A stretch of DNA of 49,827 bases. Origin: Phycisphaera sp. (GTDB taxonomy: Bacteria; Planctomycetota; Phycisphaerae; Phycisphaerales; Phycisphaeraceae). This document shows positions 5,944 through 37,000 of this stretch, one piece after another; positions within the stretch are counted from its first letter, which is position 1; each line of letters starts with the position of its first letter. Both the position numbers and the translations under genes were made by a program. The notes beneath the pieces were generated by a model. That model was given only the letters and a program-made list of their open reading frames with translations. It did no database searches and was not told where the DNA came from. The stretch covers positions 1 to 49,827 of the forward strand of contig JANQPR010000015.1 in assembly GCA_028285385.1 (NCBI GenBank), given 5' to 3'.

Positions 5944-5958
5944 GGTCGATACTCCCCG

Positions 5959-10856: not shown

Positions 10857-11390
10857 ATGTCGGCACGTACCTTGAAGCAGAAGGGCTTCACGCTCGTCGA
10901 GATCCTGATTGTCGTGGTCATCCTCGGCATTCTGGCGGCGGTCGTGATCCCGCAGTTCACCTCGGCGTCGGAAACCGCCCGCGCTTCGTCGCTCAAGACG
11001 CAGCTGCAGTCGATCCGTTCGCAGCTCGAGCTCTACCAGGTCCAGCACCTCGGCGACTACCCGACGCTCGCCCAGTTGCAGACCAACGACCCGGACACCT
11101 GGGACCAGCTGACCCGCGTGTCCAACCCGCAGGGTGAGTTCACCGCGACCGGCACCAACCCCGACCCAGACCTGGGCCCGTACCTGCAGAAGGCCCCGGT
11201 GAACCCGTTCATCGGCAGCTCGAACGTGGCCGCCGACAACTCGGCCGCGTGGGAGTACACCGAGGCGAGCGGTGCCATCCGCGCCGTGATCCCGACCGCC
11301 AAGTGGACCAACGACGCCGAGGAGCTCGGCTTGGCCACCGCCGCGGAAGTGACCGCCGGCAGCAACACGGACTTCATCGAAGGCCCGTAA
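10857..11390 (+). CDS. Major pseudopilin / type IV pilin-like protein (GspG-PilE type)
   Basis: A 177-residue prepilin with a short basic leader ending KQKG and the class III cleavage motif G|FTLVE, including the conserved Glu5 of the mature protein. The hydrophobic helix ILIVVVILGILAAVVIPQF follows. The next segment (LKTQLQSIRSQLELYQVQHLGDYP) and the PYLQKAPVNPF element resemble GspG major pseudopilins, so it should polymerise into the fibre after prepilin peptidase processing. No prepilin peptidase gene is in the window. It has a strong ribosome site, a structured leader and its own terminator, so it is probably expressed well above the genes that follow. Confidence 0.9.
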   Translation: MSARTLKQKGFTLVEILIVVVILGILAAVVIPQFTSASETARASSLKTQLQSIRSQLELYQVQHLGDYPTLAQLQTNDPDTWDQLTRVSNPQGEFTATGTNPDPDLGPYLQKAPVNPFIGSSNVAADNSAAWEYTEASGAIRAVIPTAKWTNDAEELGLATAAEVTAGSNTDFIEGP

Positions 11391-11541: not shown

Positions 11542-11808
11542 ATGCGAAGCCTGCGTTACCTCAACGGCATCCTGACCGTCCTCGCCGTGCTGCTGGCCGT
11601 GAACACCTGGGTGTTGATCGCCGGGACGCCAGCGGGGGCCGTGCTCTCGCCGGTGTCCGAAGCCCGCGCTCAGGGCGTCGGCGGCGCCGCCGAGCGTCAG
11701 GTCGAGATCGTGAACCAGCTCAAGGCGTTGAACAAGTCGGTCACCGCGTTGGAGAAGACGATCCAGCAGGGCGTGACCGTCAACGTCAAGACCATGCCGA
11801 AGAAGTGA
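11542..11808 (+). CDS. Small membrane-anchored or secreted protein, unknown function
   Basis: An 88-residue protein with GGAG at 11531-11534, 7 nt before the ATG. The N-terminus is hydrophobic from about residue 9 to 28. An AxA-type site (EARA, then QG) near residue 45 could be a signal peptidase cleavage point. The remainder (ERQVEIVNQLKALNKSVTALEKTIQQ) looks like a short amphipathic coiled coil ending in a basic NVKTMPKK. It sits between the pilin terminator and the GspH-like gene, so a minor role in pilus assembly is possible. No family is recognised. Confidence 0.7.
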   Translation: MRSLRYLNGILTVLAVLLAVNTWVLIAGTPAGAVLSPVSEARAQGVGGAAERQVEIVNQLKALNKSVTALEKTIQQGVTVNVKTMPKK

Positions 11809-11850
11809 ACACGCCCCGCCCGCGGTTCCGTTGTTGGTGAAGCCGCCGTG

Positions 11851-12366
11851 ATGCATCGCCCACCCACACCCCGTCGTCGTTCCGCCTACACGCTCGTGGA
11901 GGTGTTGGTGATCGTCACGATCCTGGGGATCATCAGCGTCGTCGTGGTGCCGCAGATGCTGACGGCGGGCACGCTGGGTATCCAGGCCGCCGCCCGCATC
12001 GTGATGCAGGACATCCTGTTCGCGCAGAACGAGGCGATCGCTCAGCAACGGACCATCAAGGTGGTCTACGACGCCGCGGGCAACGCGTACTCGGTGACCG
12101 ACGCGACGGGCACGCCCTTGACCATGGGCTGGCTCGACGGCACGGCCGGGAACTACACGATCGACTTCGACACCGACGACCGCTTCGAGGGGATCGAGAT
12201 CCGTTCGGTGACGGTCGACGCCGGCGCGACGCCCGCGACCGAGCTCGAGTTCGACGACCTCGGGTCGCCGACGCTGTCGACGGAGATGGCGATCGTCGTC
12301 GGGTTTGACACCCAGGAACTGACCGTCCGTGTGCAGCCATTCACCGGGCGGGTGACCGTGGACTGA
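11851..12366 (+). CDS. Minor pseudopilin, GspH/FimT-like
   Basis: A 171-residue prepilin-like protein with a basic leader RRRSA, then YTLVEVLVIVTILGIISVVVVPQM. Glu5 is present, but the residue before the cleavage site is Ala instead of the usual Gly. The following part (AAARIVMQDILFAQNEAIAQQRTIKVVYD) and the beta-rich C-terminus match the GspH/FimT pseudopilin domain, which sits at the fibre tip and primes assembly. ATG 11851 is used; GTG 11848 is directly before it. It lies 42 bp after the small membrane protein and before pilM, consistent with a minor component of the same machine. Confidence 0.85.
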   Translation: MHRPPTPRRRSAYTLVEVLVIVTILGIISVVVVPQMLTAGTLGIQAAARIVMQDILFAQNEAIAQQRTIKVVYDAAGNAYSVTDATGTPLTMGWLDGTAGNYTIDFDTDDRFEGIEIRSVTVDAGATPATELEFDDLGSPTLSTEMAIVVGFDTQELTVRVQPFTGRVTVD

Positions 12367-12481: not shown

Positions 12482-13564
12482 ATGAAGCTCGGGACACTGC
12501 AACTCGGCAAGGCGGCGCCGCCCATCGGGGTAGACCTCGGTCGGCACGGCGTGCGGCTGGTCCAGCTCGACCGACCCGGCCCGGCCGGGAGGGTCGCGAC
12601 GACGGCACGGCAGCCGATGCCCGCCGGGGTCTCGCTGCGCGACGAGGGCTACCACCAGTGGGTGACCTCGGCGGTAAAGTCCGCGTTGGAGCAGGGGCAG
12701 TTCGTCGGGCGCAGGTGCGTCAGCGTCTTGCCGTCCGGGTCGGTGGAAGCAAAAAACCTTCGTTTGCCCCGGATGCCCGCCGACGAGTTGCGTGACGCCG
12801 TGGCGTGGGAGATGCGCGACCGGCTCGGGGCCGACGGCGGCGAGTTGTTCGTGCAGTTCATCCAAGCGGGCGAGGTCCGACAAGGAGACGACGTCCGGGA
12901 GGAAGTGATCGCGTTGGCCGCGCGGACGGCGTTCGTCGAGGAGCACGTCGACTCGCTGGTCAAGGCCGGGTTGGCCCCGACGGCCGTGGACGTGTCGGTG
13001 ACAGCGTTGACCCGCGCCTTCGCACAACAGGTCGCCGAGGGTGTGCACGTGCTGCTGGACGTCGGCCACGAGTCGAGCAAGATCGTCGTGGTGCGCGACG
13101 GCCGGGTGGTGTTCTTCAAGCAGTTGGAGGTGGCGGGCCAGGCGTTCGACCGCAGCGTCGCTCAGCACGTCTCGATGCCGATCGCCGAGGCGCCGGAGCT
13201 GCGTCGCCAGTTCCGCCTGGACGACGACCGCGCGTCCGCCAGCCCCGAGCAACGGGCGATGTTTGAAGCGCTTCGGGCGCCGGTCACGGACCTGTCGCGC
13301 GAGGTGGACCTGTGCCTGCGTTACTTCGGCGTGACGTTCCGGGGCGAGCGACCGCGGGCGGTGACGCTGATCGGCGGCGAATCGCTTCAGCCGTGGCTCC
13401 CGGTGATGTTCGCCGAGTCGAGCGGGCTGTCGGTGCAGGTCGGCGACCCGACGGCGGGCGTGCTGCCAGACGCGGGGGCCGGTTGGTCTTCGGCGATCGG
13501 CGCGGCGGCCCGGGCGGACCTGACCTGGGGGGAGCGCCGGCGCGCGGAAAGGGCGGCGGCGTGA
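12482..13564 (+). CDS. pilM: Type IV pilus assembly protein PilM
   Basis: A 360-residue actin-like protein. It begins with GVDLGRHGVRLVQLD, the phosphate-1 loop form of PilM/FtsA proteins. The phosphate-2 segment is HVLLDVGHESSKIVVVRDG, and the GGE segment (LIGGESLQPWL) belongs to the adenosine site. PilM sits on the inner face of the cytoplasmic membrane, binds the PilN N-terminus and links the PilNO(P) frame to the motor. The next gene is pilN, whose GTG overlaps this stop in GTGA, so the two are translationally coupled. The ATG has a weak GTGAGG site just upstream. Confidence 0.9.
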   Translation: MKLGTLQLGKAAPPIGVDLGRHGVRLVQLDRPGPAGRVATTARQPMPAGVSLRDEGYHQWVTSAVKSALEQGQFVGRRCVSVLPSGSVEAKNLRLPRMPADELRDAVAWEMRDRLGADGGELFVQFIQAGEVRQGDDVREEVIALAARTAFVEEHVDSLVKAGLAPTAVDVSVTALTRAFAQQVAEGVHVLLDVGHESSKIVVVRDGRVVFFKQLEVAGQAFDRSVAQHVSMPIAEAPELRRQFRLDDDRASASPEQRAMFEALRAPVTDLSREVDLCLRYFGVTFRGERPRAVTLIGGESLQPWLPVMFAESSGLSVQVGDPTAGVLPDAGAGWSSAIGAAARADLTWGERRRAERAAA

Positions 13565-14277
13565 ACGAGATCAACTTCCTGCCTCAGTCGTACCGCGACC
13601 GGCTGCGGACTCGGCAACGCCGGGTGCGCGAGGGAGCGGTCGTCCTGCTGCTCTGCGGCGCCCTGGGCGTCTACTGGACGTACGGGATGACCGCGCGGAT
13701 GAGCCTGCGTCAGCAGGCGTTGCAGGCCGAGGACCGGCTGGCCAACGCGCTGAGCACCGAGCAACAGGTGCTCGAGTTGCGGGAGGTCAAGGAACAGCTG
13801 ATGGAGCAACGCCGTGTTCAGCGCGCCGTCCGGGTGCCCGTCAGGCACCACCAGGTCGTGCGGGTGCTCGGTTCGCTGCTGCCGGAGTCGATGGCGTTGC
13901 GGGCGTTGACGCTAGAAAACGACCGGCCCACACCCAAGGCGTGGCAACCGCCGGCCGAGGAGATCGATGACGAGCGCGCGGGCGGCGTCCCGGTGTTCAG
14001 CGCCGAGCCGACCAAGGCCGAGCCGAACTTAATCAAGGTCGAGTTCGAGGCGGTCGCCCCCGACGACCTGACGGTGGCGGCGTTGATCGCGTCGATGAGC
14101 GAGCACCCGCTGTTCACCGGCGTCAAGTTGCACTCGAGTCGGTACGTCGAGACGCAAGGCCTCGCGGCGCGGCAGTTCCGTGTGACGGCCAACGTCGACC
14201 TGTCTCGTGAGTATGTCTGGACCGATCCTTCCTCGGCACAGGCCGCCGGCGAAGTGGTGGCGGAGGTGTCGCCGTGA
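13561..14277 (+). CDS. pilN: Type IV pilus inner-membrane protein PilN
   Basis: A 238-residue protein that begins MNEINFLPQSYRDR, very close to the INLLP.R element by which PilN binds PilM. One transmembrane helix follows (VVLLLCGALGVYWTYG, about residues 23-41), then a coiled coil and a periplasmic ferredoxin-like domain ending near FRVTANVDL. The start is GTG 13561 inside the pilM stop, and its stop overlaps the pilO start in GTGA. It pairs with PilO to form the alignment frame of the pilus machine. The product is somewhat longer than typical PilN owing to a loop at about residues 120-145. Confidence 0.88.
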   Translation: MNEINFLPQSYRDRLRTRQRRVREGAVVLLLCGALGVYWTYGMTARMSLRQQALQAEDRLANALSTEQQVLELREVKEQLMEQRRVQRAVRVPVRHHQVVRVLGSLLPESMALRALTLENDRPTPKAWQPPAEEIDDERAGGVPVFSAEPTKAEPNLIKVEFEAVAPDDLTVAALIASMSEHPLFTGVKLHSSRYVETQGLAARQFRVTANVDLSREYVWTDPSSAQAAGEVVAEVSP

Positions 14278-14861
14278 GCAAGGCGTCTCCCCTGTCTCGG
14301 CTGCCCAAGGCGAAGGTCCCCGCGGACGTGTGGGTGACCGCGGCCGTGGTCGTCGGCGTGTTGGCCGGCTTCTTCGGTTTGGTCTGGTACCCGGCCCACC
14401 GGCAGCACACGCAGTTCGAGTCGCGCGCGTCCGGCGCGGTGACGCGACTGTCCGACATCGGGGTGTCCGAGGCCGAGCTGGCTCGGTTGCAGGAAGAAGT
14501 TGCGGCGCTGCGCACGCAGATCGGGAACGACCCGCACGTCGTGCCCGAGTCGCCGCAGTTGTCGTCACTGCTGCGGAGCCTGACCGAGTCTGCCCGGAGC
14601 CAGGGCGTGCAGGACCAGGAGCTGACGACGCGGGACTTCCAGCGTTTCGCCGACTTCGCGGTGATCCCGACGAACCTGGAGTTCGAGGCGGGGTTCGCGT
14701 CGGCGTTGGCGGTGGTGGAAGCGATTGAGAACCACCGCCGGCTGACCGGCGTGGAACGGACCGAGCTGCGCGGGGACAACGACGCGATCGGACGGCGTGG
14801 GCTGCAGACGCGCCTCGAGTTGGCGGCGTACTTCACCGGCGACGGGGAGGCCCGGCCATGA
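14274..14861 (+). CDS. pilO: Type IV pilus inner-membrane protein PilO
   Basis: A 195-residue protein with one N-terminal transmembrane helix (VWVTAAVVVGVLAGFFGLVWY), a coiled coil rich in Glu, Leu and Arg at about 60-85, and a C-terminal alpha/beta domain containing NLEFEAGFASALAVVEAIENHRR, which resembles the PilO segment where a short helix follows the FxGSF-like strand. It overlaps pilN by GTGA and the next gene by ATGA. Position between pilN and the PilP-like gene supports the call more than sequence alone, since PilO proteins diverge strongly. Confidence 0.82.
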   Translation: MSKASPLSRLPKAKVPADVWVTAAVVVGVLAGFFGLVWYPAHRQHTQFESRASGAVTRLSDIGVSEAELARLQEEVAALRTQIGNDPHVVPESPQLSSLLRSLTESARSQGVQDQELTTRDFQRFADFAVIPTNLEFEAGFASALAVVEAIENHRRLTGVERTELRGDNDAIGRRGLQTRLELAAYFTGDGEARP

Positions 14862-15391
14862 AGCACATCGTCCAAGACTACGTCCGTGAGTTGCGTCGCA
14901 GCCCGCTCAAGGGCGGCACGATCGCGGTGCTGCTGGCGGTGGGGCTGCTGCTCTGGGGCCGGTTGCTGCTGAAGGAGGTCCCGCGGACCGCCTCGGCGTG
15001 GCGGGCGTCGGTCGCGGTCGACGACGGCGCGTTCGACCTCGGCGCCAGGCCCGAGAAGCGCCCGATCGAGTTAACGGACCCGGGCCCGCCGGCCCGCGAC
15101 ATCTTCGCCATTGACCCCAGTCACTACAGACGGACCTCGTCGTGGCGCGACGAGGCAGATCGGGAGAAGTCGGGGCGATGGGGTACCGAGAACGGTGTGC
15201 AAGCGGCCGTTGTGTCGGCGGCCGGCAAGCTGCGCCTGACCAGCGTGATCGAAGGCGAGGACCCCGTGGTGATCATCAACAACCAGCTCCTGCGAGCCGG
15301 CGACACCATCGAGGGCTTCACCGTCGTCCGGCTGGAGCGGCGTGCCGTGATCCTGGAAAGCCAGGGGGTCAAGGTTCGTCTCAGCCTCTGA
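14858..15391 (+). CDS. PilP/GspC-like pilotin-side component
   Basis: A 177-residue protein with one transmembrane helix (TIAVLLAVGLLLWGRLLL, about residues 20-37) and a C-terminal HR-type beta domain, GKLRLTSVIEGEDPVVIINNQLLRAGDTIEGFTVVRLERRAVIL, which matches the homology region of PilP and GspC that contacts the secretin N0 domain. RDIFAID before it resembles the RDPF element of PilP. Unlike proteobacterial PilP it has no lipobox and is held by a membrane helix, as in GspC. It starts in ATGA overlap with pilO and lies upstream of the secretin. Confidence 0.8.
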   Translation: MKHIVQDYVRELRRSPLKGGTIAVLLAVGLLLWGRLLLKEVPRTASAWRASVAVDDGAFDLGARPEKRPIELTDPGPPARDIFAIDPSHYRRTSSWRDEADREKSGRWGTENGVQAAVVSAAGKLRLTSVIEGEDPVVIINNQLLRAGDTIEGFTVVRLERRAVILESQGVKVRLSL

Positions 15392-15474: not shown

Positions 15475-18027
15475 ATGGCCAGCAAGCGTAAACACGAGAT
15501 CAGCAAGAAGAAGTGGGGAACCATCCTCGGCACGGCCGGGGCGTTGTTCGTCTCGCCGCTCGCGGCGTACGGGCAGGACGCCGGCTACGACTTCGACCAA
15601 CTGGCCGAGGTCGACGGGGAAGCGCCCCTGGGCCTGTTCGACGTCGCCGACGGCGACGCCGACGGCGAGTCCAGCATCAACATGGACTCGTTCGGCAAGG
15701 TCGACCTCGCGGTCAAGGACCTCGAGATCGCCAAGGTGCTCCAGCTCCTGTCGATCCAGAGCCAGAAGAACATCGTCACCAGCCGCAACGTCTCGGGCAC
15801 CGTGTCCGCGGACCTGTACGGCGTGACGTTCCACGAGGCCCTGGACGCCATCCTCGAGCCCAACGGGTTCGGGTATGAGGAGAAGGGCAACTTCATCTAC
15901 GTCTACACCGCCGAAGAACTCCAGGAACGCCGCGACGCCTCGCGGGCCCTGCAGACCAAGATCATCCGGCTGAACTACCTCAACGGCGACGACGCCAAGA
16001 CCATCGCCGAGGCGATGATGTCCGACGCCGGCTCCGTGACGTTCAGCTCGGCGGTCGAGGACGGGTTCCTGCCCAGCGAGTCGGACGCGGGCGGCAACAG
16101 CTTCGCGCTGCCGGACTCGATCATCGTCCGTGACTACGAAGAGAACGTCGCCGCCGTCGAGGGCATCATCGCCGAGCTCGACGTGCGTCCGAAGCAGGTC
16201 CTGATCGAGGCCACCATCCTCCAGGCCCAGTTGACCGAGAACAACGCCTTCGGCGTCGACTTCTCCGTGTTCAGTAACCTCGACGCGTTCGACTTCACCA
16301 ACCCGCTCAACGCGATCGGTGAGTTGATCGGCGGCGGCGGTCCCGATGGCGATGCCGGCGGCGGCGTTCAGTCCACCGTCGGCAACACCGCCGGCCCGGG
16401 CGGCGTGAAGGTCGGGTACGTCGGCTCCGACGCGGCCGTGTTCGTCCGTGCGTTGGACTCCGTCACCGACACGACCGTCGTGGCCAAGCCCAACATCCTC
16501 GTGCTCAACCGCCAGAAGGCCGACCTGCTCGTCGGTCAGCGGCTCGGTTACCTCAGCACGACCGTCACGGACACCAGCAACACGCAGACCGTCGAGTTCC
16601 TCGACGTCGGTACCCAGCTGACCGTCCGCCCGTTCATCTCGAACGAGGGCACCGTCCGCCTCGAGTTGCGGCCCGCGATCAGCGACGGTGCGGTGCGCGA
16701 GCAGGCCGGCTTCGTCATCCCCGACGAGACGACCCAGGAGCTCATCACCAACATCATCGTCGAGGACGGTCAGACCGTCGTCATCGGCGGCCTGTTCAAG
16801 GAAGACACGACCAACAACCGCAACCAGGTCCCCGGCCTGGGCAACATCCCGGTCCTGGGCGCTGCGTTCCAGGGCAAGGACGACACGGTTGAGCGGTCCG
16901 AGGTCATCTTCCTGATCAAGACCTCGATCATGGAGCCGTCGCAGCTCACCATCGGTGGCCAGGCCGCCGAAGCCGCGATCCGCAACAAGCGCCTCGGCGC
17001 GAAGCAGGGCCTGCTGCCCTGGTCGACCGACAAGCTCGTCAGCAGCAACCTCCTGACCGCCCGCGAGGCGCTCGAGAGCGGCGACGACAAGAAGGCGATG
17101 TGGCACACCAACCTCGCGCTGCACATCAGCCCGACCTCCGCCGACGCCCTGGCGCTCAAGCAGGAGATCACGGGTGAGCAGATCGCCTATCACGACCGCT
17201 CGCAGCTGCGGGGCATCATGGACTCGATGATCGACGCCGACGTCGAGGCCCTGGCGCCCAAGGCTGAAGAACCCGTGGCGTTCTCCGAGGCCGTGACCGA
17301 GGAGCCCGCCGAGGTCGAGACCGCGGCCGCCGAGACGGTAGTGTCGACGGACATCGAAGACGTGTTCGTTGAGACCGAAGCCCCGGCTGAGGCCGAGGAA
17401 GTGATCGCCGAGGTCGACACGACCGCCGACGCGGGCACGACCGAGGCAACGGACACGTTCGCCGCCGAGTCGGCCGAGCCGCAGCCGGCTGAAGTGATCG
17501 ACACCTTCGAGGCCGAGCCCGTGCAGACGGCCGAGCCGGTGCAGGAAGTGATCGCCGAAGTCGACACCGAGTCGTTCAGCGCCGCCGAGCCGACGCAGGA
17601 CGAGACGGTCGAGGGCGACGCCTTCGACTGGGGCCAGAGCGCCGAGGGCGCCGTGGCCGAGGCCGACGACGAATCGGGCGCGTTCGATGCGCCGCAGAGC
17701 ACCGCCCAGGTGACCGTGTCGGTCGAGACCGACGCGAGCGACTGGGAGTTCGCCGAGCCGATCTCGGTCGAGCCGACGGCCGACGCCCCGGCCACCACCG
17801 CCGAGTTCGCCGGCGACGGGTTCGAGGCCGACACCTTCGACGCCGACCTGTTCTTCGAGAGCACCGGCGGCGACGTCCCGGACTTCGCCACCGAGGTCGC
17901 TGCCGACCCCGTCGAGGCTCAGGCCGAAGCGACGGATGCTGAAGAAGCGACCGATAACGCCGCCGACGAAGGCGACTTCTACGACCAGTTGATGACCGAG
18001 GTCGAAGTAACCGACGACGGCAACTAA
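15475..18027 (+). CDS. Secretin (PilQ/GspD family) with a long acidic C-terminal tail
   Basis: The outer-membrane channel of the pilus/secretion machine, 850 residues. A signal peptide ends near AAYG|QD. An N0/STN domain is at about 76-145 (DLAVKDLEIAKVLQLL), an N1 domain at about 159-238, and the secretin core at 240-487, with KPNILVLNRQKADLLVG and VPGLGNIPVLGAAF as family signatures. A TPR-like stretch follows (490-590). The last 240 or so residues are a Glu/Ala/Thr/Val-rich tail with recurring VIAEVDT and AEPVQ units, which is unusual for a secretin. ATG 15475 has AAGGAG 8 nt upstream; ATG 15418 lacks a usable site. It follows the PilP-like gene by 83 bp. Confidence 0.92.
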   Translation: MASKRKHEISKKKWGTILGTAGALFVSPLAAYGQDAGYDFDQLAEVDGEAPLGLFDVADGDADGESSINMDSFGKVDLAVKDLEIAKVLQLLSIQSQKNIVTSRNVSGTVSADLYGVTFHEALDAILEPNGFGYEEKGNFIYVYTAEELQERRDASRALQTKIIRLNYLNGDDAKTIAEAMMSDAGSVTFSSAVEDGFLPSESDAGGNSFALPDSIIVRDYEENVAAVEGIIAELDVRPKQVLIEATILQAQLTENNAFGVDFSVFSNLDAFDFTNPLNAIGELIGGGGPDGDAGGGVQSTVGNTAGPGGVKVGYVGSDAAVFVRALDSVTDTTVVAKPNILVLNRQKADLLVGQRLGYLSTTVTDTSNTQTVEFLDVGTQLTVRPFISNEGTVRLELRPAISDGAVREQAGFVIPDETTQELITNIIVEDGQTVVIGGLFKEDTTNNRNQVPGLGNIPVLGAAFQGKDDTVERSEVIFLIKTSIMEPSQLTIGGQAAEAAIRNKRLGAKQGLLPWSTDKLVSSNLLTAREALESGDDKKAMWHTNLALHISPTSADALALKQEITGEQIAYHDRSQLRGIMDSMIDADVEALAPKAEEPVAFSEAVTEEPAEVETAAAETVVSTDIEDVFVETEAPAEAEEVIAEVDTTADAGTTEATDTFAAESAEPQPAEVIDTFEAEPVQTAEPVQEVIAEVDTESFSAAEPTQDETVEGDAFDWGQSAEGAVAEADDESGAFDAPQSTAQVTVSVETDASDWEFAEPISVEPTADAPATTAEFAGDGFEADTFDADLFFESTGGDVPDFATEVAADPVEAQAEATDAEEATDNAADEGDFYDQLMTEVEVTDDGN

Positions 18028-18102: not shown

Positions 18103-19362
18103 ATGTTCAACCGCTCGACCCTGACGCAGACCCTGCTCGCCGCCACCGTCGTCGCCGGGCTCGCGCTGTCCGGCTGCCAGAACCGCCACGACGAGTGGGT
18201 CAAGGAGGCCGACGGCCGGTGGCAGAGCCTGCGCTCGCACGTCATGATCGAGACGGCGACGAACCAGTTCACGGCCGGGCAGCTCAAGCAGGCCGAGAAG
18301 ACCGTCAACGACGCTGCCCGTGTCGACCCGGACAACCCGAAGCTGTTCAACCTCGCCGGCCGTATCGCGCTGGAGAAGGGCGAACTCGAGTACGCGTTCA
18401 AGCTCTTTGCCCGATCAATCGTGCTCAGCGACACCGGCAGCGACGCGTTCGCCGACCCGTATTACTACCAAGGCGTCATCCTGCAGCGCTGGAGCAAGCA
18501 CGAAGACGCGCTCGAGCGCTACGAGGCCGCCCAACGCCTCGAGCCCGACAACCCCAGCCGGCTGCTCGCGGTCGCCGAGACGCTGGTCACGCTTGAACGC
18601 TTCGACGAAGCCGCCAAGGTGCTCGAGGACCGGCTCGACTACTTCGACAGCAACGCGTCGATGCGTGTCGCGCTCGGCCACATCTACGGGCTGAAGAGCG
18701 AGTACAGCACCGCCGCGGATTACTACCGCAACGCCGCGCTGCTCGCGCCCGACGAGACGATCATCCAGGAAGAGCTTGCCCGTACGCTCATCGAGGCCAA
18801 CCAGCCCGACGAGGCCGCGAGAGCGCTCAAGGCCCTGCTCGCCAAGGACGCCTACGCCAACCGCACCGACCTCATGCGTCGCCTCGCCGCCGCCGAGCTC
18901 AGCGCCGGCCGGGTCGCCGACGCCCGGCAGACGTACATCGACCTGACCAACATCGAGCGCGACGTGCCGACCGACTGGATCAAGCTCGGCGAGCTGTCCT
19001 GGCGGATGGAAGACCTGGGCGGCACGCTGATCGCCGCCAACCGCGTCATGGACCTCGCGCCCAACCGGCACGAGGGTTACCTGATGGCCGGCATGGTTTG
19101 GCAGAAACGCGGCCGACTGGTCGATGCGCTCCGGTTGTTCGATCACGCCGCCAAGCTGGCGCCCAACGACACCACGCCGCTGCTGATGCGCGGCCTGGCG
19201 TTGCAGAAGGTCGGCAAGCCCGCCGCGGCGGCCAAGGCCTACGAGGCGGCGCTGAAGCGCAACCCAGACGACAAACGGGCGCAGCGGCTGCTGTCCTCCG
19301 TACAGAAGGAAATCGAGTCGCAGGCCGCCGTGTCCACCGAGGCCGCCGCGACCGGGTACTGA
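18103..19362 (+). CDS. TPR-repeat lipoprotein of the pilus locus
   Basis: A 419-residue protein with a lipoprotein signal (hydrophobic run, then LALSGC, Cys at residue 25) and about ten tetratricopeptide repeats, such as AGRIALEKGELEYAFKLFARSI and YEAALKRNPDDKRA. It is probably lipid-anchored and faces the periplasm. Its position after the secretin suggests the pilotin/PilF role of helping the secretin insert or assemble, although it is longer than PilF of Pseudomonas (an inference from context). It lies 21 bp after the secretin terminator, so it may depend on partial read-through or its own promoter. Confidence 0.85.
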   Translation: MFNRSTLTQTLLAATVVAGLALSGCQNRHDEWVKEADGRWQSLRSHVMIETATNQFTAGQLKQAEKTVNDAARVDPDNPKLFNLAGRIALEKGELEYAFKLFARSIVLSDTGSDAFADPYYYQGVILQRWSKHEDALERYEAAQRLEPDNPSRLLAVAETLVTLERFDEAAKVLEDRLDYFDSNASMRVALGHIYGLKSEYSTAADYYRNAALLAPDETIIQEELARTLIEANQPDEAARALKALLAKDAYANRTDLMRRLAAAELSAGRVADARQTYIDLTNIERDVPTDWIKLGELSWRMEDLGGTLIAANRVMDLAPNRHEGYLMAGMVWQKRGRLVDALRLFDHAAKLAPNDTTPLLMRGLALQKVGKPAAAAKAYEAALKRNPDDKRAQRLLSSVQKEIESQAAVSTEAAATGY

Positions 19363-19430: not shown

Positions 19431-20900
19431 GTGCAAACTCACTGGTATCGGGCGATCCTGGCGGGGGTGGCCACGTGCCTCGTCGCGGGTGTCTCCTTTG
19501 CCGCGCTCAGTGCGTCACCGATGCCGAGGGGGTGGGGTGTGTGGTTGGCGTCGTGTTTAATCGGAGGCCTGATTGGGTTCGCCGCCTGGCGGATCGCGGC
19601 GGCGCTGCAGCGCGACATCCGCCGGCTGGTCGGGTATCTACACACGCTGTCCGGGGAGGGCGCGACGCTCCCGCCGCGGCTTGGGTTCGGGCTGGGGCCC
19701 GCCGCCAACGTCGCTGCACAGACGATCCAGGCGATGAGCGAACGGCTCGACGAGATGACCCGGCTGCGGCGGGAGCTCGAGCTGCGCAGCCGGGTCAGCG
19801 AAGCCGAGCGCGGCCACCTCGAAGCGATCCTGAACGCCATCACCGACGGCGTGGTGGTTACGGACGCGTTCGACGAGGTCAAGATTGCCAACGGCGCGGC
19901 CGCCCAGGTGCTCGACTTCGAGCTCCAGCCGGCGCTGCGTCGTCCGTTGGACGAAGTGACCGAAGACGCCCGGCTGATCAAGCTGATCAAGGACACCCGC
20001 GACGCCGGCGCGAACCAACGCCGCGGCATGGAGCACCGCGTCGGCGGCCGGTCGTTCCGCGTCACTACCACCTGCGTCGCGGGCAGGGGCGTGGCGGCGC
20101 CGGGTGCGGCCGGCGCCGCCGGCGTGGTCACCGTGCTGCACGACGTGACCCGGGACAAGGAGATCGCCGAGATGAAGTCCGACTTCGTCTCCAAGGTGTC
20201 CCACGAGCTGCGGACGCCGCTCAGCTCGATCAAGGCCTACGTCGAGATGCTGATCGACGGCGAGGCGCACGACGAAGACACCCGCAGCGAGTTCTACGGC
20301 ATCGTCCAGAACGAGACCGACCGGCTCCAGCGGATGATCGACAACATCCTCTCGATCAGCCGGATCGAGTCCGGCGTGACCAAGGTCCACCGCGAGCAAG
20401 TGGAACTCGCAGTGTTGGTCAACGGTTGTGTCGAGGTGGTACTGCCGCAGGCACGCGACAAGGGCGTGACGCTCGACCGTCTCGTCACCGAGCGCGAAGC
20501 CGTTGTGTTTGCCGACCGGGACATGCTGGTCCAGGCCGTGATGAACGTGGTGTCCAACGCGGTGAAGTACACGCCCGCGGGGGGCACGGTCGGGCTTGCG
20601 ATGGTTTCCGACGGGCCGAGTCGGACGGTGACCCTGAGCGTGACGGACACCGGCGTCGGCATCCCCGCCGAGGACGTGCCCCGCCTGTTCCAGAAGTTCT
20701 ACCGCGTGCCGTCCAATAACACGGTCGCGCCGGGTACCGGCCTGGGCCTGAACCTGGTGAAGCACGTCGTCGAGAACGTTCATGCCGGCAGCGTGTCGGT
20801 CGAAAGCACGGTCGGACACGGCACGACGTTCAAAATGGCCCTCCCTTTAGCCGACATTCCCAGTGAGCGAGGGGCAGACTTGTTAGCGAGGCGATGGTGA
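19431..20900 (+). CDS. Membrane PAS-domain sensor histidine kinase
   Basis: A 489-residue kinase with two transmembrane helices at about 7-28 and 37-56 and almost no periplasmic loop, so it likely senses the membrane or cytoplasm. A linker, then a PAS domain at about 130-240 (LNAITDGVVVTDAFDEV), leads to HisKA with phospho-acceptor H258 in SKVSHELRTPLSS. The ATPase domain has the N box NVVSNAVKYTP, G1 DTGVGIPAED and G2 GTGLGLNLVKHVV. GTG 19431 is chosen because it is the first start that fits after the TPR gene and keeps both helices; the frame is open further upstream inside that gene. It overlaps the response regulator by 7 nt. Confidence 0.9.
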   Translation: MQTHWYRAILAGVATCLVAGVSFAALSASPMPRGWGVWLASCLIGGLIGFAAWRIAAALQRDIRRLVGYLHTLSGEGATLPPRLGFGLGPAANVAAQTIQAMSERLDEMTRLRRELELRSRVSEAERGHLEAILNAITDGVVVTDAFDEVKIANGAAAQVLDFELQPALRRPLDEVTEDARLIKLIKDTRDAGANQRRGMEHRVGGRSFRVTTTCVAGRGVAAPGAAGAAGVVTVLHDVTRDKEIAEMKSDFVSKVSHELRTPLSSIKAYVEMLIDGEAHDEDTRSEFYGIVQNETDRLQRMIDNILSISRIESGVTKVHREQVELAVLVNGCVEVVLPQARDKGVTLDRLVTEREAVVFADRDMLVQAVMNVVSNAVKYTPAGGTVGLAMVSDGPSRTVTLSVTDTGVGIPAEDVPRLFQKFYRVPSNNTVAPGTGLGLNLVKHVVENVHAGSVSVESTVGHGTTFKMALPLADIPSERGADLLARRW

Positions 20901-21325
20901 CGCAACCCCCCTTAGTTCTGGTCTGTGACGACGAGTCCCACATCGTCCACGTGGTCTCGCTGAAGCTCCGTAACGCGGGGTACGAGGTCATCACCGCGCC
21001 CGACGGCGCCGAAGCGCTCGAGCTGGTCAAGCGACGGCTGCCCGATCTGATCGTGACGGATTACCAGATGCCCTACGTCTCCGGCGTCGAGCTCTGCGCC
21101 GCCCTGCGCGAAGACGAGGCGACCGCCGACGTCCCCGCCATCATGCTCACCGCTCGGGGCTTCCGCCTCGACCCGGCCGAACTGCACCGGGCGCGGATCA
21201 TCGACGTCGTCAGCAAGCCGTTCAGCCCGCGGGAGGTGCTGCTGAAGGTGCAGGCGATCGTGCCCGTGTCGGGAGGCCGTCAGGCCGAAGCACCCAGCCC
21301 CGACCAATCCCCGGAGGCCGCGTGA
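20894..21325 (+). CDS. Single-domain response regulator (CheY-like)
   Basis: A 143-residue protein made of a receiver domain with the acidic pocket D12-D13, phospho-acceptor D56 in LIVTDYQMP, a Thr in MLTARG and Lys in VVSKPFSP. A short Pro/Ser/Ala tail follows. It has no output domain, so it should act by protein contact. Overlap with the kinase gene (7 nt) and the HD-GYP gene (GTGA) suggests kinase to receiver to HD-GYP signalling. Confidence 0.92.
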   Translation: MVTQPPLVLVCDDESHIVHVVSLKLRNAGYEVITAPDGAEALELVKRRLPDLIVTDYQMPYVSGVELCAALREDEATADVPAIMLTARGFRLDPAELHRARIIDVVSKPFSPREVLLKVQAIVPVSGGRQAEAPSPDQSPEAA

Positions 21326-22968
21326 GTCAGCCCGCCGTCCAACTCGCGTCGCCGCCCGAAGCGACGCTGAGCCCGGAGGTGTTCCGCCGCGCCGAGGCGC
21401 TCGGCGTGACGCTGCTGCGGCTGCGCGACGGCGGCGAGGCGCGAGCGCTGACCGCGTCGGGCCGTGTGGTAGAGGCGATCGTCGCTTCGTCGTTGTTTTC
21501 CGGTGCGCTGCGCCGAGAGTGGTCGTCGCTGACGGCGGCACCCGGCACCGTCCGGGAGTTGTGGCCGGGCGTGCGCGTCGCGTCGTTGAGGCCGGGCCCG
21601 GGCCGGCTGGCGGTGCACCCGCCGGTACCCAAGAAGCTCTACGCCGTGTTGCTACTGGGACCGGAGTTGACGGAGTCCGAGCAGTTCCACGGCGTCTGCG
21701 GCGAGGCCGGGCTCGATCGGGGGGCCGCGGCGGCGGAGGCCCAAGGCGACTCGACCGTTTCCGCCGGAGAAGCGCACCGGCTCGCGCTGACATTGAGCTG
21801 GATGTGTGAAGACGATGGCAACCTTCACCGCCGTGGCGGCGAGTTGCAGGGCCTGTCGCTGGAACTAGCCGACACGTACGAAGAGCTCTCGCTCTTGTAC
21901 AAGCTCGCGAGCAGCCTCCGCGTCAAGGCGTCACCCGAGACGGTGTTACGCGACGCCTGCGAGGAGCTGCACCAGGTCATCGGGTTTCGTTGGCTGGCGT
22001 TGTCGTTGGTGAATGATCCCCGTCTCAACGACGTGAGCGGCCAGACCATCTGTCTCCACGTCGGGGATTTTGACCCGGACGAGATGGACGCCGCCGCCGA
22101 CGCGTTGATGCAGCGGTACCCCGACCTGCACAGCCCCATGATCGTCGACCGTGCGGGCGAGATCGCGCTCCCCGGGGTCGAGTCGCTGGGACAAAACTTT
22201 CTGATCATCCCGATGCGTCTCGATGACGGGGTGCTCGGTGTGATGTTCGGGGCCGACCGACTCGACGGTGACCTGATCTCGTCGGTGGACGCGAAGCTGT
22301 GCGAGTCGCTGGCGGGGTCGCTGACCATCTACCTCGAAAACCACATGCTCTACGACGATGCGCACAGCATGTTCCTTGGCACGCTGCACGCCCTGACCGC
22401 CGCGATCGACGCCAAGGACAGCTACACCCACGGTCACTCCGAGCGGGTGGCCCTGCTGGCCCGGATGCTCGCCGAGCAGGTCGGTCTGGGCCACCAGGTG
22501 TGCGAGCGCGTCTACCTCTCGGGCTTGGTGCACGACGTCGGCAAGATCGGCGTGCCCGAAGCGGTGCTGTGCAAGCCGGGGCGCCTCACCGCGGACGAGT
22601 TCGGGCTCATCAAGCTACACCCGCAGATCGGCGCCAACATCATCCGCGACATCCGGCAGATGGAGGACCTCGTCCCCGGCGTGCTGTACCACCACGAGAA
22701 GTACGACGGCGGCGGCTACCCGACCGGACGGGCGGCGGAGGAGATCCCGTTGTTTGGCCGGCTTATCGGGCTGGCCGACGCGTTCGACGCCATGTCTTCC
22801 GACCGCACGTACCGTAAAGCGATGAAGCTCGAAGACGTGCTCGCAGAGGTCACCCGGTGCGCCGGGACGCAGTTCGACCCCGAGCTCGCCGCGGCCTTTG
22901 TGCAGATGGACTTCGCCCCCTTCGACCGGTTGATCCGCAAGCACGAACGCATGCGGCGTGCGGCCTAG
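21322..22968 (+). CDS. GAF-HD-GYP protein, probable cyclic-di-GMP phosphodiesterase
   Basis: A 548-residue cytoplasmic protein. Residues 1-165 form an unrecognised N-terminal domain; a helix links to a GAF domain at about 205-340; the HD-GYP domain is at about 350-530. Metal-binding and signature residues are intact: H404-D405 in GLVHDVGKIGVP, the HH pair in LYHHEKYDGGGYP and the GYP at 465-467. Such domains hydrolyse c-di-GMP to pGpG or GMP. It starts within the response regulator stop (GTGA) and lies upstream of the STAS and PilB genes, whose ATPase carries a likely c-di-GMP-binding domain. The GAF domain suggests a second, small-molecule input. Confidence 0.92.
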   Translation: MSQPAVQLASPPEATLSPEVFRRAEALGVTLLRLRDGGEARALTASGRVVEAIVASSLFSGALRREWSSLTAAPGTVRELWPGVRVASLRPGPGRLAVHPPVPKKLYAVLLLGPELTESEQFHGVCGEAGLDRGAAAAEAQGDSTVSAGEAHRLALTLSWMCEDDGNLHRRGGELQGLSLELADTYEELSLLYKLASSLRVKASPETVLRDACEELHQVIGFRWLALSLVNDPRLNDVSGQTICLHVGDFDPDEMDAAADALMQRYPDLHSPMIVDRAGEIALPGVESLGQNFLIIPMRLDDGVLGVMFGADRLDGDLISSVDAKLCESLAGSLTIYLENHMLYDDAHSMFLGTLHALTAAIDAKDSYTHGHSERVALLARMLAEQVGLGHQVCERVYLSGLVHDVGKIGVPEAVLCKPGRLTADEFGLIKLHPQIGANIIRDIRQMEDLVPGVLYHHEKYDGGGYPTGRAAEEIPLFGRLIGLADAFDAMSSDRTYRKAMKLEDVLAEVTRCAGTQFDPELAAAFVQMDFAPFDRLIRKHERMRRAA

Positions 22969-23021
22969 CCCGGATAACCGACGCAGCCCACCTGAACCCG
23001 ATGCCGGTTTCGGTCGATGAC

Positions 23022-23027
23022 TTGACA
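23022..23027 (+). promoter_or_regulatory. Possible -35 box before the STAS gene
   Basis: TTGACA, a perfect -35 hexamer, lies in the 89-bp gap between the HD-GYP and STAS genes. The only -10-like box is weak (GACGTT at 23047-23052, 19 nt away), so an internal promoter is possible but not secure. Confidence 0.25.
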
Positions 23028-23057
23028 GGACCGCGCCGGCGCCCGGGACGTTGTGCC

Positions 23058-23396
23058 ATGAAACTCACGCACGAAGACTACGACCAGCTCAGCGTCTTCA
23101 CGCTCAAGGGCGAGTTCGTTGGCGAGGAAGACGCCGAACGCCTCCGCGCGGCGGCGCAGGAGCGGCTCGACCACGCCATCCGCGACGTCGTCCTCGACCT
23201 GGAACACGTCGAGTTCGTAGACAGCCTCGGCCTCGAATCGATGCTCTGGCTGCAGGACACCTGTGCCGAAAAACTGGGGCAGGTCCGGCTCGCGAACGTC
23301 CACGGGAACGTGACCGAGGCGCTACGCGTCACGCGCCTGGCCGGCCGCCTCGAACTCCACGCCGACGTCGACGCTGCCATCAACAGCTTGAGGTGA
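23058..23396 (+). CDS. STAS-domain protein (anti-sigma-factor-antagonist-like)
   Basis: A 112-residue single STAS domain: FTLKGEFVGEEDAERL at the start, VVLDLEHVEFVDSLGLESMLWL in the middle and LANVHGNVTEALRVTRLAGRLEL at the end. In SpoIIAA-type antagonists the regulatory Ser is the second Ser of a DSSG motif; here the motif reads DSLG, so that position is Leu and switching by phosphorylation at that residue looks impossible. The protein may be a constitutive partner or a structural domain. It sits between the HD-GYP gene and the pilus ATPase gene, ending 3 bp before the latter's GTG. Confidence 0.85.
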   Translation: MKLTHEDYDQLSVFTLKGEFVGEEDAERLRAAAQERLDHAIRDVVLDLEHVEFVDSLGLESMLWLQDTCAEKLGQVRLANVHGNVTEALRVTRLAGRLELHADVDAAINSLR

Positions 23397-23399
23397 TAT

Positions 23400-25160
23400 G
23401 TGATCCGACTCGGCGACAACAAGGCCCCGTCGCATACCGGCCTCCGGGCTGGCCCGCCGCTGCGCGTCGGCGACCTGTTGGTCGAACGCGAGCTGATCTC
23501 CCCCGATCAACTCGACCAGGCGCTCGCCCGGCAGAACCAGCAGCCGGGCATGAAGAAGCTGTTGGGCGAGGTGTTGGTGGAGATGGGCTTCGCCACCGAA
23601 GAGCAGGTGATGGCCGTCCTCGCCGACGCGTACGGCGTACCCTTCGCTCGGCTGACCCCCAAGCTCGTCGACCCCCGGGTCATCGAGGAACTGCCCCGGG
23701 AGTTCCTCGAAAAAAACCGAGTCGTGCCGCTCTTCTGTGTCGAGGGCAAACTCACCGTCGCGATGCACGAGCCCGCGAACGTGTTCGTTATCGAAGAGGT
23801 CGAACGTGTGTCCGGCAAGACCGTTCAGGTCGTAGCCGTCACGAACAAGGACATCGAGACGACACTCGCCGCGTTCATGCCCGACGGCAACGTCTTCGTG
23901 ATCGACGAGATGATCGGAGACGGCGGCGCGGACGACGTGGCCGTCGTGGAACGCGACATACAGGACATCTCGAACGTCGAGAACTCCGCCGACGCCTCGC
24001 CGATCATCAAGCTGGTCAACTTCCTGATCTACTCGGCCGTGAAGGACGCCGCCTCCGACATCCACATCGAACCGGACGAGAACAAGCTCCGCGTGCGGTT
24101 CCGCGTTGACGGCCGGCTGTTCGAGAAGATGTGCCCGCCGGCGCAGATGCAGCCCGCGGTTGTCTCCCGCATCAAGATCATGGCCGGGATGGACATCTCC
24201 GAGCGTCGCGTGCCCCAGGACGGCGGCATCACCATCGCGATCCAGAAGTCGCAGATCGACCTCCGCGTCAGCACGTGCCCCGGCAAGTTCGGCGAGAAGG
24301 TCGTGATGCGCATCGTCGACACCCGTAACGCGCTGGCCCGGCTCGAAAAGATCGGCCTGTCGTTCGAGATGCTCGAACGCTTCCGCGAGGTCGTCCACCT
24401 CCCCAACGGCGTGTTCCTGGTCACCGGGCCGACCGGCTCGGGCAAGTCCACGACGCTCTACGGGGCGCTCAACGAGATCAACGAAGAATCGATCAACATT
24501 AGCACGGTCGAAGACCCGGTCGAGAACAACATCCCCGGCGTCAACCAGTTCCAGGTCAACGACAAGGCCGGGTTCACGTTCGCGTCTGCGCTGCGGTCAC
24601 TGCTGCGGCAGGACCCGGACGTCGTCATGATCGGCGAGATCCGCGACCAGGAGACCGCCCGCATCGGCATCCAGGCGGCGTTGACCGGGCACCTCGTGCT
24701 CTCGACCCTGCACACCAACGACGCGCCCTCGGCCGTGACCCGGCTGTTCAACATCGGGGTCGAGCCGTACCTCGTTGCGGCGGCGATCCGCGGCGTGCTG
24801 GCGCAGCGCCTCGTGCGTCGGATCTGCTCGAACTGCAAGGAAGTGGCGGAGGTCAGCCCGCAGATGCGACGCACGCTGGACCGGCTGAAAGACGGCGGCC
24901 GCGACATCGAGACGGTGCACCAGGGCGTTGGCTGCTCCAAGTGCCGGAACTCGGGCTACGCCGGTCGGATCGGCGTGTTCGAGTTGTTGATCCCCGACGA
25001 CGAGATGCTGGACGCCGTATCGCGCGGCGCCTCGCTGCAGGAGATCCGCCGGATGGCGGTGTCGGGCGGGGGGTACACCACGCTGCGTCAGGACGGGATC
25101 GACAAGGTAAAGGCCGGGCTGACCACCCTCGAAGAGTTGTTCCGCGCGACCAGCATCTGA
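23400..25160 (+). CDS. pilB: Pilus/secretion assembly ATPase PilB/GspE with MshEN domain
   Basis: The 586-residue hexameric motor that drives fibre extension. Residues 21-85 form an MshEN/GspE-N domain with two repeated motifs: [20 protein letters not shown] and [20 protein letters not shown]. This pattern binds c-di-GMP in MshE. The ATPase core has Walker A GPTGSGKS (343-350), the Asp box STVEDPVE (368-375), Walker [10 protein letters not shown] (405-413) and the His box [10 protein letters not shown] (431-440). A zinc tetracysteine is C476-x2-C479 and C512-x2-C515. The start is GTG 23400. pilC follows at 43 bp, and no retraction ATPase (PilT) is in the window. It could equally be called gspE. 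Confidence 0.93.
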
Positions 25161-25203: not shown

Positions 25204-26430
25204 ATGCCGACGTTCCGCTACAAAGCCCGTGACGCCCGTGGCGAGTTGATGACCGGCCTGCTCAACGCGGTGTCGGCAACGGACGCCGGCGCGTTGCTGC
25301 GGGGGGAGGGCAAGTTCGTCGTGGCGATCGACGAGGCGCCGGAGCGCGACCCCGAGAAGACGGACGAAGCGAAAGCCGTCCGCACCGGCGGGCGTGTCCG
25401 GCGGGACGACGTGATCTCCTTCGCGCACCAACTGGCCGCCATGATCGAGACGGGCGTTCCGCTGTCCGACGCGCTGGAGTGCGCCGCCGATCAATGCGAT
25501 GACCCCGCCTTCCGGGCGGTGCTGACGGACGTGTACGACCGCGTGCAGAGCGGCTCGGAGCTGTCGGTCGCGTTGCGGCAGCACCCCAAGGCCTTCCCGC
25601 CAGTGATGATCGCGCTGGTCTCGGCGTCGGAACTCTCAGGCACGATGGGGACGATGCTCGACCGCATCAGCGGGTACCTGCAGAAGGAGCAGCAGACCGC
25701 CAAGAAGATCAAGAGCGCGCTGACGTACCCCGCGATCATGCTCGTGATGATCACCGGGGTCACCATCGGTCTGCTGACGTGGGTGCTACCGAAGTTCACC
25801 GGGATCTTCGCGTCGCGCGGCGCGACGCTGCCGCTGCCGACTCGCATCCTGATGGCGGCGTCGGAGTCACTGCTCAGCTACTGGTACTTCTGGATCGGGG
25901 GCGTGGCTTTCGTCGTCGTGTCGTTTCTGTTTGCGAAACGGACCGAGGGCGGTCGGCGATCGCTCGACCTCTTGAAGCTGCGCTGCCCGGTTTTAGGGGA
26001 ACTCTTCCGCAAGCTCTACATCACCCGGTCGATGCGGACGATGGGCACGATGCTCGAGGCGGGCGTGCCGATCCTCGACATGGTCGCCACGGCGCGCGAG
26101 GTGACGCGCAATGCCTGGTACGAAGACCTCTGGGACGACCTGGACGACCGCATGCGCCGCGGCGGTCAGCTGTCCGACGGCATGTTCGAGACGCCGCTGA
26201 TCCCGCGCAACGTCGCTCAGATGGTCTACGCCGGCGAGAAGTCTGGCCGGCTGGGCAAGACGATGAACAAGATCGCGACGTTCACCGAGGACGAGTTCGA
26301 CGAGCAGGTCAAGGCCACAACGAGCCTGATCGAACCCGCGATGACCGCGGCGATGGGCCTGATCATCGGCTTTATCGCGATTGCGCTGCTGCTGCCGATC
26401 TTCTCGGTGAGCAACGTCGTGGCGAACTGA
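25204..26430 (+). CDS. pilC: Pilus/secretion inner-membrane platform protein PilC/GspF
   Basis: A 408-residue polytopic protein with the two-fold GspF repeat. The first cytoplasmic domain is near 70-185 ([20 protein letters not shown]), then a transmembrane helix ([19 protein letters not shown]), a second helix ([18 protein letters not shown]), the second domain ([18 protein letters not shown]) and the last helix ([19 protein letters not shown]). It transmits PilB motion to the pilin subunits. ATG 25204 ([14 protein letters not shown]) matches the family start. It is the last gene of the pilus locus; its stop faces parE with 26 bp between. Confidence 0.93.
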
Positions 26431-34096: not shown

Positions 34097-37000
34097 TCAT
34101 TCTTGCGTTTGGTCCGGCGGTTCGGCCTGTTCCGCTTCGTACTGCGCACGGAGCGCGGCCTCGCGCTGGCGGCGTTGCTCGGCGCGGCGGCGGGCCTCTT
34201 CGGCGATCTCGGCCTCGCGTGCGGCGCGTTCGGCGGCGCGCTGCCGGGCGAGATCTGCGATCGCGTTCGTGTCCTCCGGTTCGTCGTCGTCCGGTGACGC
34301 GAGCGCCAAGGCTCGGCGGAGGCGTTCGAGTTCGCGGCGGTCCGTGGCGTTCAGCGCGAAGTCGCCGGACTCATCGTCGTCGATCCGTTCGTCGATCTCC
34401 GTGAGCGTCAGGGCCGCTGTCTCGAGTTGGTCCGCGGAGAGCAGCTTGTCGACGAGGTTGATCTGCCAGGTGAAGGCGTCGGGTGCGAGCTCGGCAGCGC
34501 GGCGGGCGTGACGGATGGCGTCGTCGTGTTCGCCGCGGGCCTGGTGGATCCGCGCGAGCGTGTCGTGGATGTTGGGGATCTGTGGAGCGAGCTCGACCGC
34601 TCGGTTTGCCAGTTCGAGGGCGCGGTCCAGTTGGTCTTTCATGGACGCCAGCCCGTCGGCGAAGTTGTTGAGCACCACGGGGTTGTCGGGTTGCGCCGCG
34701 ACGAGGCGGTCGTAGTGCGCGGTCATGGCGGGGTAGTCTCCGAGCAGTTGCGCGAGCATGCCCGCCGCGGATTCGGCTGCGAGCGGGACCTCGGCGGGGC
34801 GGCCGTTGTTGCTGCGCGCACGGAGTAGCTGGTCGTCGAGCCAGCGTTTAGCGGCGGCGACGGGTTGCTGGTCGCCGCTGAGCGAGAGGGACTCGTGGAC
34901 AGCCGCGGCGACGCGCGGCCAGCCGTTGGGGTGATCGAGCGGCAGCGTGCCGCCGAGACGCTGGACCCACGCGGTGAGTTCCGCCGGGTTGGCGACGAGG
35001 AGCGGCAGCAGGCGTATCGCCGCTTCGCGCCAGGCGGTCCCGTCGTCGAGGCGCGGCCAGATGAGGTCGCGGGCTTGTTCGTAGCGCCCTCCGCGGACAA
35101 ACACTGCGGCGACCTCGGCGGCGTAGGCCGGGTTGCGCAGGCCGGAGACGCTGCGCCCGACTAGCCCCTCGGCGAGGCCAACGGCGCCGTCATTGGCCCC
35201 GACGGCCGATCGGAGCGAGGCCACCGCCAGCGACAGGGCCGGGTCTCGGTCGGCGGCGGTTGCGGCGAGCAGCGAAGCGTAGTGGTTCGCGCGAACCAAG
35301 TCGCGCGCCTGCACGCAGAGCGTCAGGACTTGTTGCGTCGTCGGTTCGGGCAGCCGGTCGGCCACCATCATCAGGCCCAGGCGGTCGAGGAGCACGGCGG
35401 TCGCGGCCGCCGAGTCGTCCGCCTGGTTCTTTCGATACAGCTCGCGTAGCTGCGTCTGTGGGTAACGCCAGAGACGGTCGCGGAGCGCCGAGGGCCGCGG
35501 CACTGAATCGCCGGGCGCGGCGGTTTGCATTTGGTGGAGGAAGGTCAGAACGGTGGCGGTGTCGGCAGACTGTCCGAGGGCCTCGATGGCTGCGGGCATG
35601 TAGGCGGGATCGGACAAAAGGTCCCTGAGCATTCCGGCCGTCGAGTGCGCGGCGAGTTGCGCGAACCACGGGCCGGAACGGGTGTTGCGGGAGGCCGCGT
35701 CGAGCGTCTCGTCTACGGCGTCGGTGTTGGCGTCGCGCGATGCGTGCAGCAGCGTCAGCCAGTAAAGCCCCGAGTGCTCCGACCCTTCTTCAGTGGGTGA
35801 AAACGAAGGCGACGCGGCGGCCAACCATTCTTTCGCCTCGTCTCCGCGGCGATGGTTGAGCAGCACCGCCGTCCAGAGTCGGCGGCTGGACGGATCGAGT
35901 TCAACACCATTCAACGCCGCAACCCAGGCTCCACGGGTGGTCTCGTCCAACTCGAGCAAGGGCAGGAAGCTCTGCACCGCCCGTCGGTTGGCTTCGAGCG
36001 GAGAACTCCACAACTCCCCGGCCAGTGCTCGCGCAGCTTCGGTTTGCCCGGTCCCGATCCGCCACGACAACAGAGCACGATTGCCTTCGACCGCAGCCCC
36101 CGTGCCCCCGAGTGCGGCGGCGACCGATCCGGCCGCCTCGTCTTCGCCCAGCGCCGCCAGTGCGGCAAACAAGTTGGCGCTTCGGCTTGGCGTCGGGGAG
36201 GCGACACGTCGCTGCGCGGCAGACCGGAGGAACCCGGTGATGGCGTCGGCGGCGTCGTGCTCTCCGACGACCCGGAACAAACGCCCGAGCGCGGCCATCC
36301 GGCGTGGGTCGTCCGGTCGGTGTCGGTGCCACTGCGTCCGCGCTTCCAGGGCGGCGGCATAATCTCCCAGCGCGAGGTTGAAGCGGTCGAGGAGGATGAG
36401 TGCGTCTTCCCGAGCGTGCCCGGCGGACGACGCGACCATGGTTTGTAGCGTACCGCTGTGCTCACGGGCTTGTTCAAACGTGTCGGCCGTCAGGATTCGG
36501 TCTCGTGCTTCGTCGAAGTCCAGCCCGGTGGCGAACCAGACGCCGGCGGGTGTTGCCTGCTCGCGCGTGGCCCGGCGCAGCAGTTCCATTTCACGCCAAG
36601 CCTTCGGCCAACGCGGCAGCGCCGCGAGTAACGCATCGACCCCAACGTCTGACATACCTCGCTGCGCCCATGCCCAGACGCCCGGTTCGTTCAACGCGTC
36701 CGCGATGACCAGCCGCCCGACGAGCGCGTCAGCATCAATCGAGTTCGAACCGGGGCCCCCGAACCGGCTGGTCATGATCGACCACGCTTGATCGCTGCGC
36801 CCCCGGGCTGACAGCCACTTCCCCCACGACGCGAGCAGGTTGGCAGGCGCGTCGGGTTCGGCCAACAACGCTTCCGCGAACGAATCGACCACCGCGCCCT
36901 TCTCCGGCAACGCTTCGATCAACCCCGACCAAGCGGTGTCGGAGCGTGCTTCTGAGACCACGCTCCGCAACGCTGTCGACCACGCTTCGGCCGTCCGCGG

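Follow-up and report, generated by a model that had tools for sequence, protein, structure and literature searches.

A type IV pilus-type assembly operon of Phycisphaera sp. appears, with slightly better than even confidence on our part, to have a two-component-to-cyclic-dinucleotide control module built into it. In the mechanism that we propose, a membrane histidine kinase (HK) would sense through its TM/PAS region and phosphorylate a stand-alone receiver (REC), which in its phosphorylated form would bind and tune a separate GAF-HD-GYP phosphodiesterase. This enzyme would lower c-di-GMP near the machine, the cyclases that make c-di-GMP being encoded elsewhere, and the MshEN domain of the assembly ATPase PilB would read the messenger, turning pilus extension or secretion up or down, the sign itself being presumptive. 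A STAS protein would most likely serve as a phospho-regulated partner or adaptor of PilB. The explanation starts from gene order, conservation, residues, predicted folds and a correlation with motif retention, from which we infer the biochemical steps.

Layout of the locus

The window, the whole stretch of 49,827 nucleotides that we analysed, is one entire contig, and the draft genome it belongs to measures 4.4 Mb. The genes of the locus are listed below with their coordinates and strand.

10857..11390, + strand: major pilin or pseudopilin with GspG/ComGC-like N-methylation (Pfam N_methyl 8.9e-09; NCBIfam GspG 5e-16, below cut-off)
11542..11808, + strand: small membrane protein (open reading frame; no confident family; a similar protein occupies the same position at L115)
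11848..12366, + strand: minor pilin, GspH-like (Pfam N_methyl and GspH)
12482..13564, + strand: PilM (PF11104 4.6e-20; TIGR01175 7e-32, below cut-off)
13561..14277, + strand: PilN (PF05137)
14274..14861, + strand: PilO (PF04350)
14858..15391, + strand: PilP/GspB-like periplasmic protein (T2SSB 6.3e-06, just below cut-off; CdsD_C)
15475..18027, start approximate, + strand: secretin, PilQ/GspD-type (Secretin 2.8e-39; TIGR02515 3.5e-63, below cut-off)
18103..19362, + strand: TPR lipoprotein (TPR families; PilW model 2.3e-24, below cut-off)
19431..20900, + strand: membrane HK with two TM segments, a very short loop in the periplasm, and PAS, HisKA and HATPase_c domains
20894..21325, + strand: stand-alone REC with phospho-acceptor D56 (PF00072 4.6e-23)
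21322..22968, + strand: GAF-HD-GYP, predicted cyclic-dinucleotide phosphodiesterase (PF13487 2.7e-34)
23058..23396, + strand: STAS protein whose S56 belongs to a DSxG phospho-site motif (PF01740 3.4e-11)
23400..25160, + strand: assembly ATPase of the PilB/GspE family carrying an MshEN domain at its N-terminus (T2SSE 3e-132)
25204..26430, start approximate (ATG 25204), + strand: PilC/GspF platform protein (T2SSF 5.3e-62)

An earlier note on this DNA had placed the HK, REC, HD-GYP and STAS genes upstream of pilB with overlaps of 7 nt and GTGA, and coordinates, Pfam and NCBIfam confirmed this arrangement. HK and REC overlap by 7 nt and REC and HD-GYP by 4 nt (GTGA), followed by gaps of 89 nt between HD-GYP and STAS and of 3 nt between STAS and PilB. 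The insertion had been described as lying between the TPR/secretin genes and pilB; it does run from the TPR gene to pilB, but the secretin gene lies beyond the TPR gene on its upstream side. A convergent gyrB lies 3' of PilC, which ends at 26430. Rough dN/dS ratios of 0.28–0.54 against a same-genus genome, at fairly high dS, indicate purifying selection on all genes.

A type IVa pilus set is present (PilM, PilN, PilO, secretin, PilB, PilC and pilins), with several NCBIfam scores below cut-off. The window locus has no PilT retraction ATPase; at the orthologous loci L155, L178 and L179 a PilT that scores above cut-off separates PilB from PilC, and PilT also occurs on other contigs of the window's genome. 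PilM/N/O together with PilT at orthologous loci tentatively favour the name type IV pilus over type II secretion system; the machine may have a type II secretion-like role.

As previously claimed, the window contig encodes no GGDEF cyclase: the eight GGDEF matches of the genome are all on other contigs, and there is one EAL match in the genome. A pairing of PilT with one GGDEF gene as an operon on contig C36 was rejected because unrelated genes lie in between. The suggestion that one locus makes both the machine and its control therefore holds for the machine and signalling genes but not for the cyclase or PilT, which are outside it, and the operon probably encodes the machine together with some of the control acting on it.

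Elsewhere in the window, an exosortase gene (38647–40386, - strand) stands beside a gene whose very long product has TPR repeats at its C-terminus (34097–38650, - strand). A pyruvate formate lyase-like glycyl radical enzyme is encoded at 5188–8115 (- strand), and the product of the gene just 3' of it has an N-terminus that, judged by eye, resembles a radical-SAM activase.

Conservation of the gene order

PilB and HD-GYP were searched for in 60 relatives and the flanking DNA was then read, giving 40 loci with an orthologous PilB (L069–L108). HD-GYP lies upstream of PilB with STAS in between at 36 of these loci, STAS adjoins PilB at 38, and HK was detected at 28 (some contigs are cut). A chance gene neighbourhood was rejected on this synteny. 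The earlier note had proposed that its reading be abandoned if homologous loci in close relatives lacked the signalling genes, and the relatives gave no such refutation, with HD-GYP at 36/40 and STAS at 38/40.

Among 76 named loci the order PilM-N-O-P-Q-TPR-HK-REC-HDGYP-STAS-PilB-(PilT)-PilC recurs often. L160 (titled Ca. Kuenenia) and L185 (titled Planctomycetaceae PLA4) are among the loci that show it, though MAG titles may err. Named genomes of several planctomycete lineages share the HD-GYP-STAS-PilB order, and the locus is present in two complete-genome Planctomycetota records, titled ZRK32 and ZRK34. An even draw across the phylum, at E of at most 1e-90, gave relatives of HD-GYP from outside the class that had no matching neighbours within ~1.5 kb on each side; not all Planctomycetota therefore have the module.

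Kinase, receiver and phosphodiesterase

The residues expected of a phosphorelay are kept. The phospho-accepting His of HK (H258) is invariant in 65/65 sequences, and HK adjoins REC in 75 loci. REC retains D12 in 107/107, D56 in 107/108 and K108 in 108/108 sequences, and it lies immediately 5' of HD-GYP in 109 of the 114 loci when all are counted. In HD-GYP, residues H372, H404, D405, K408, H433, H457 and D486 and the GYP motif are present in 97/97 sequences and H458 in 96/97. The AF2 model of this protein (pLDDT 89.6) comprises an N-terminal alpha/beta domain (~18–140), a long helix (148–198), GAF and HD-GYP, and among PDB structures it matches 4MCW, a c-di-GMP phosphodiesterase, best over the whole fold. 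The N-terminal domain has no confident Pfam family; a weak PocR match was obtained in 2/41 members (E 0.055 at best). We consider the enzyme very probably active.

An HK-REC-GAF-HD-GYP trio also occurs in Nitrospirota (L187–L203). It shares with the window the three-gene order and a short GAF-HD-GYP. It differs in that the kinases are much longer, the stretches read hold neither pilus genes nor STAS, and the length of the HD-GYP protein leaves no room for the additional domain at the N-terminus. The kept phospho and metal residues, the 109/114 adjacency and this pilus-free trio together make a strong case that REC governs HD-GYP, which we regard as quite probable.

The N-terminus of PilB

Tandem motifs had been noticed at PilB residues 21–81. 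Two MshEN-type motifs are indeed present, at residues 22–45 (motif I) and 54–77 (motif II), but motif II is inexact relative to the published motif. NCBIfam NF053729 (MshE-related c-di-GMP domain) matched residues 22–75 with 59 bits (cut-off 38), and Pfam MshEN (PF05157) matched residues 78–159 above its cut-off. The Gly at position 3 of the 24-residue motifs is nearly universal (G24 in 81/81, G56 in 80/81). The Gln that ends motif I is kept (Q45 in 80/81), and the corresponding position 77 of motif II is mostly Ala or Gly (A77 in the window), so that the Gln, a residue that contacts phosphate, is missing from the end of motif II in nearly all orthologues. The spacer between the motifs measures 8 residues in the window and 7 in 72/81 orthologues, against a published value of 5; it is also 7 in PilB of G. 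metallireducens. Further departures of the window PilB from the published motif are V23 and E31 in motif I (usually L and G) and A65 and V70 in motif II. The bound PilF structure 9GLG is titled Q218E, and we take the altered residue to be the Gln of PilF motif II; a missing motif II Gln therefore need not abolish binding.

The AF2 model of PilB 1–170 (pLDDT 88.2) shows an MshE-like four-helix bundle and an alpha/beta subdomain, with 5HTL as top PDB match (TMt 0.83). TMt was 0.83 against c-di-GMP-bound MshE and about 0.80 against GSPII-B of PilF (0.79–0.83 over the two), and it was lower against GSPII-A (0.58) and XpsE (0.57–0.65). GSPII-A has been reported not to bind c-di-GMP (PMC11731258), and XpsE to have lost this binding (PMC5013675). 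From these models PilB is predicted to bind c-di-GMP, and we think this likely.

MshEN c-di-GMP receptors are already known (PMC5013675, PMC11731258). Like PilB of the window, MshE of V. cholerae, PilB of M. xanthus and PilF of T. thermophilus carry an MshEN domain on a PilB-family ATPase. The window PilB differs from all three in a spacer of 7–8 rather than 5, in the missing motif II Gln and in sharing an operon with HD-GYP and STAS.

Short MshEN proteins of ~180–260 aa, which leave no room for a full ATPase, were also found and are possible stand-alone cyclic-dinucleotide binders. Such frames include L244 (G000:C212:3664-3909) and frames of 178–266 aa in G006, G013, G015, G019, G025, G030 and G033.

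Motif retention and linkage among PilB groups

A second, paralogous pilus locus consists of HK-STAS-PilB-PilC-PilM-PilN and pilins with REC-HD-GYP nearby (examples are L122–L125, L271–L276 and L283). REC-HD-GYP stands at one end of this locus, mostly on the strand opposite to HK-STAS-PilB (L271–L276, L283). The window's own genome has HK-STAS-PilB-PilC on contig C170 (L128). In a third group of PilBs, arranged as PilMNOP-PilB and frequently accompanied by a PilT-like ATPase and PilC, 20/20 sampled had no linked REC, HD-GYP or STAS, and the tandem motif scores are at or near the level of shuffled proteins. The fourth group (PilB, PilT-like ATPase, PilB) has an intact motif and no local signalling genes. 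Overall, a tandem motif score of at least 16/22 was reached by 81/85 STAS-linked PilBs versus 14/39 unlinked ones (Fisher 2e-12, a value that overstates the evidence because the sequences are related and fall into about four orthologous groups).

The linkage is not strict. Several genomes, G006 and G015 among them, keep REC-HD-GYP without a window-type PilB; at L109, L110 and L115 REC-HD-GYP has no adjacent PilB and a convergent gyrB follows directly; and in G033 the PilB orthologue sits at a separate locus (L105). PilB keeps its motif with no linked HD-GYP at L080, L082, L105 and L107, and HK is absent beside several REC-HD-GYP pairs. Because REC-HD-GYP can outlive PilB and the motif can persist without HD-GYP, exclusive coupling of the two is not established. 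The kinase-receiver-HD-GYP-PilB circuit of the earlier note is partly supported, by residues, adjacency, synteny and the predicted MshEN fold, but not as an exclusive on/off reading. Whether the HD-GYP of the window sets the pool read by its own PilB we put at an even chance.

Such cases raise the alternative that HK-REC-HD-GYP is a global c-di-GMP module which shares the operon for co-expression, the whole-cell pool being read by several PilB paralogues and other receptors, with the PilB of this operon no special target. Besides the persistence of REC-HD-GYP after loss of the window-type PilB, the pilus-free trio of Nitrospirota is consistent with it, and so is the presence in the genome of several proteins with MshEN and of further HD-GYP proteins. 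However, the order is kept at 36/40 orthologous loci, the same parts are reused at the second pilus locus and linked PilBs keep the motif, and we regard this alternative as rather unlikely.

The STAS protein

Within the proposed control module of the pilus operon, STAS is the component to which the earlier note assigned no role; yet it is the most constant neighbour of PilB, lying directly upstream in 90 of 94 loci. It is retained at L080 and L082, where HK and HD-GYP are gone, and its phospho-accepting Ser (S56, DSxG) is kept in 78/79 sequences. The STAS fold and the conserved DSxG Ser are shared with SpoIIAA-type antagonists, but unlike in those systems a Pfam scan of operon genes revealed no cognate SpoIIAB-type kinase or PP2C phosphatase. 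The partner of STAS is probably PilB.

This constancy, which extends to the paralogous locus, is also what would be seen if PilB were regulated mainly by STAS, whether through partner switching or by binding it directly, and the cyclic dinucleotide were secondary or vestigial. Its survival without HK and HD-GYP, the kept phospho-Ser and the degenerate motif II of PilB fit such a role. The conserved active site of HD-GYP and the conservation of most of the MshEN pocket argue against it, as does the failure of the scan of operon genes to turn up either of the two partner enzymes, and we judge it improbable. A bolder form of the built-in module would make STAS and PilB an obligate pair, with STAS as a new cofactor of PilB that brings HD-GYP, under REC control, to the motor and so creates a physically local c-di-GMP pool for one machine, a design used at two paralogous loci of the same cells; we offer this as an unlikely, speculative extension. 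That the messenger is 3'3'-cGAMP instead of c-di-GMP is very doubtful: by sequence, HD-GYP is closest in the PDB to V-cGAP3, a cGAMP-specific phosphodiesterase of V. cholerae, and MshEN is reported to be able to bind cGAMP too (PMC5013675), but over the whole fold the c-di-GMP enzyme 4MCW matches best, with V-cGAP3 ranked lower.

Relation to known systems and significance

In Xanthomonas, the kinase PdeK and the EAL response regulator PdeR act on FimX/PilB (PMC11656802). PdeK-PdeR resembles the module proposed here as a two-component control of a c-di-GMP phosphodiesterase with the PilB machine as target. There, the EAL domain is fused to the receiver and acts via FimX-PilZ, whereas in the window a separate receiver is paired with an HD-GYP enzyme and the genes lie within the pilus operon alongside STAS. 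Literature searches, with most subscription journals outside their coverage, returned no paper on this operon arrangement.

The locus may bear on the question of how one c-di-GMP enzyme among many acts on one target. Kinase, receiver, phosphodiesterase, STAS and MshEN ATPase have apparently been fixed together at two loci in the same lineages, and the unlinked, motif-less PilB group constitutes a natural control. The ZRK32 and ZRK34 carriers of the locus may offer a route to direct tests.
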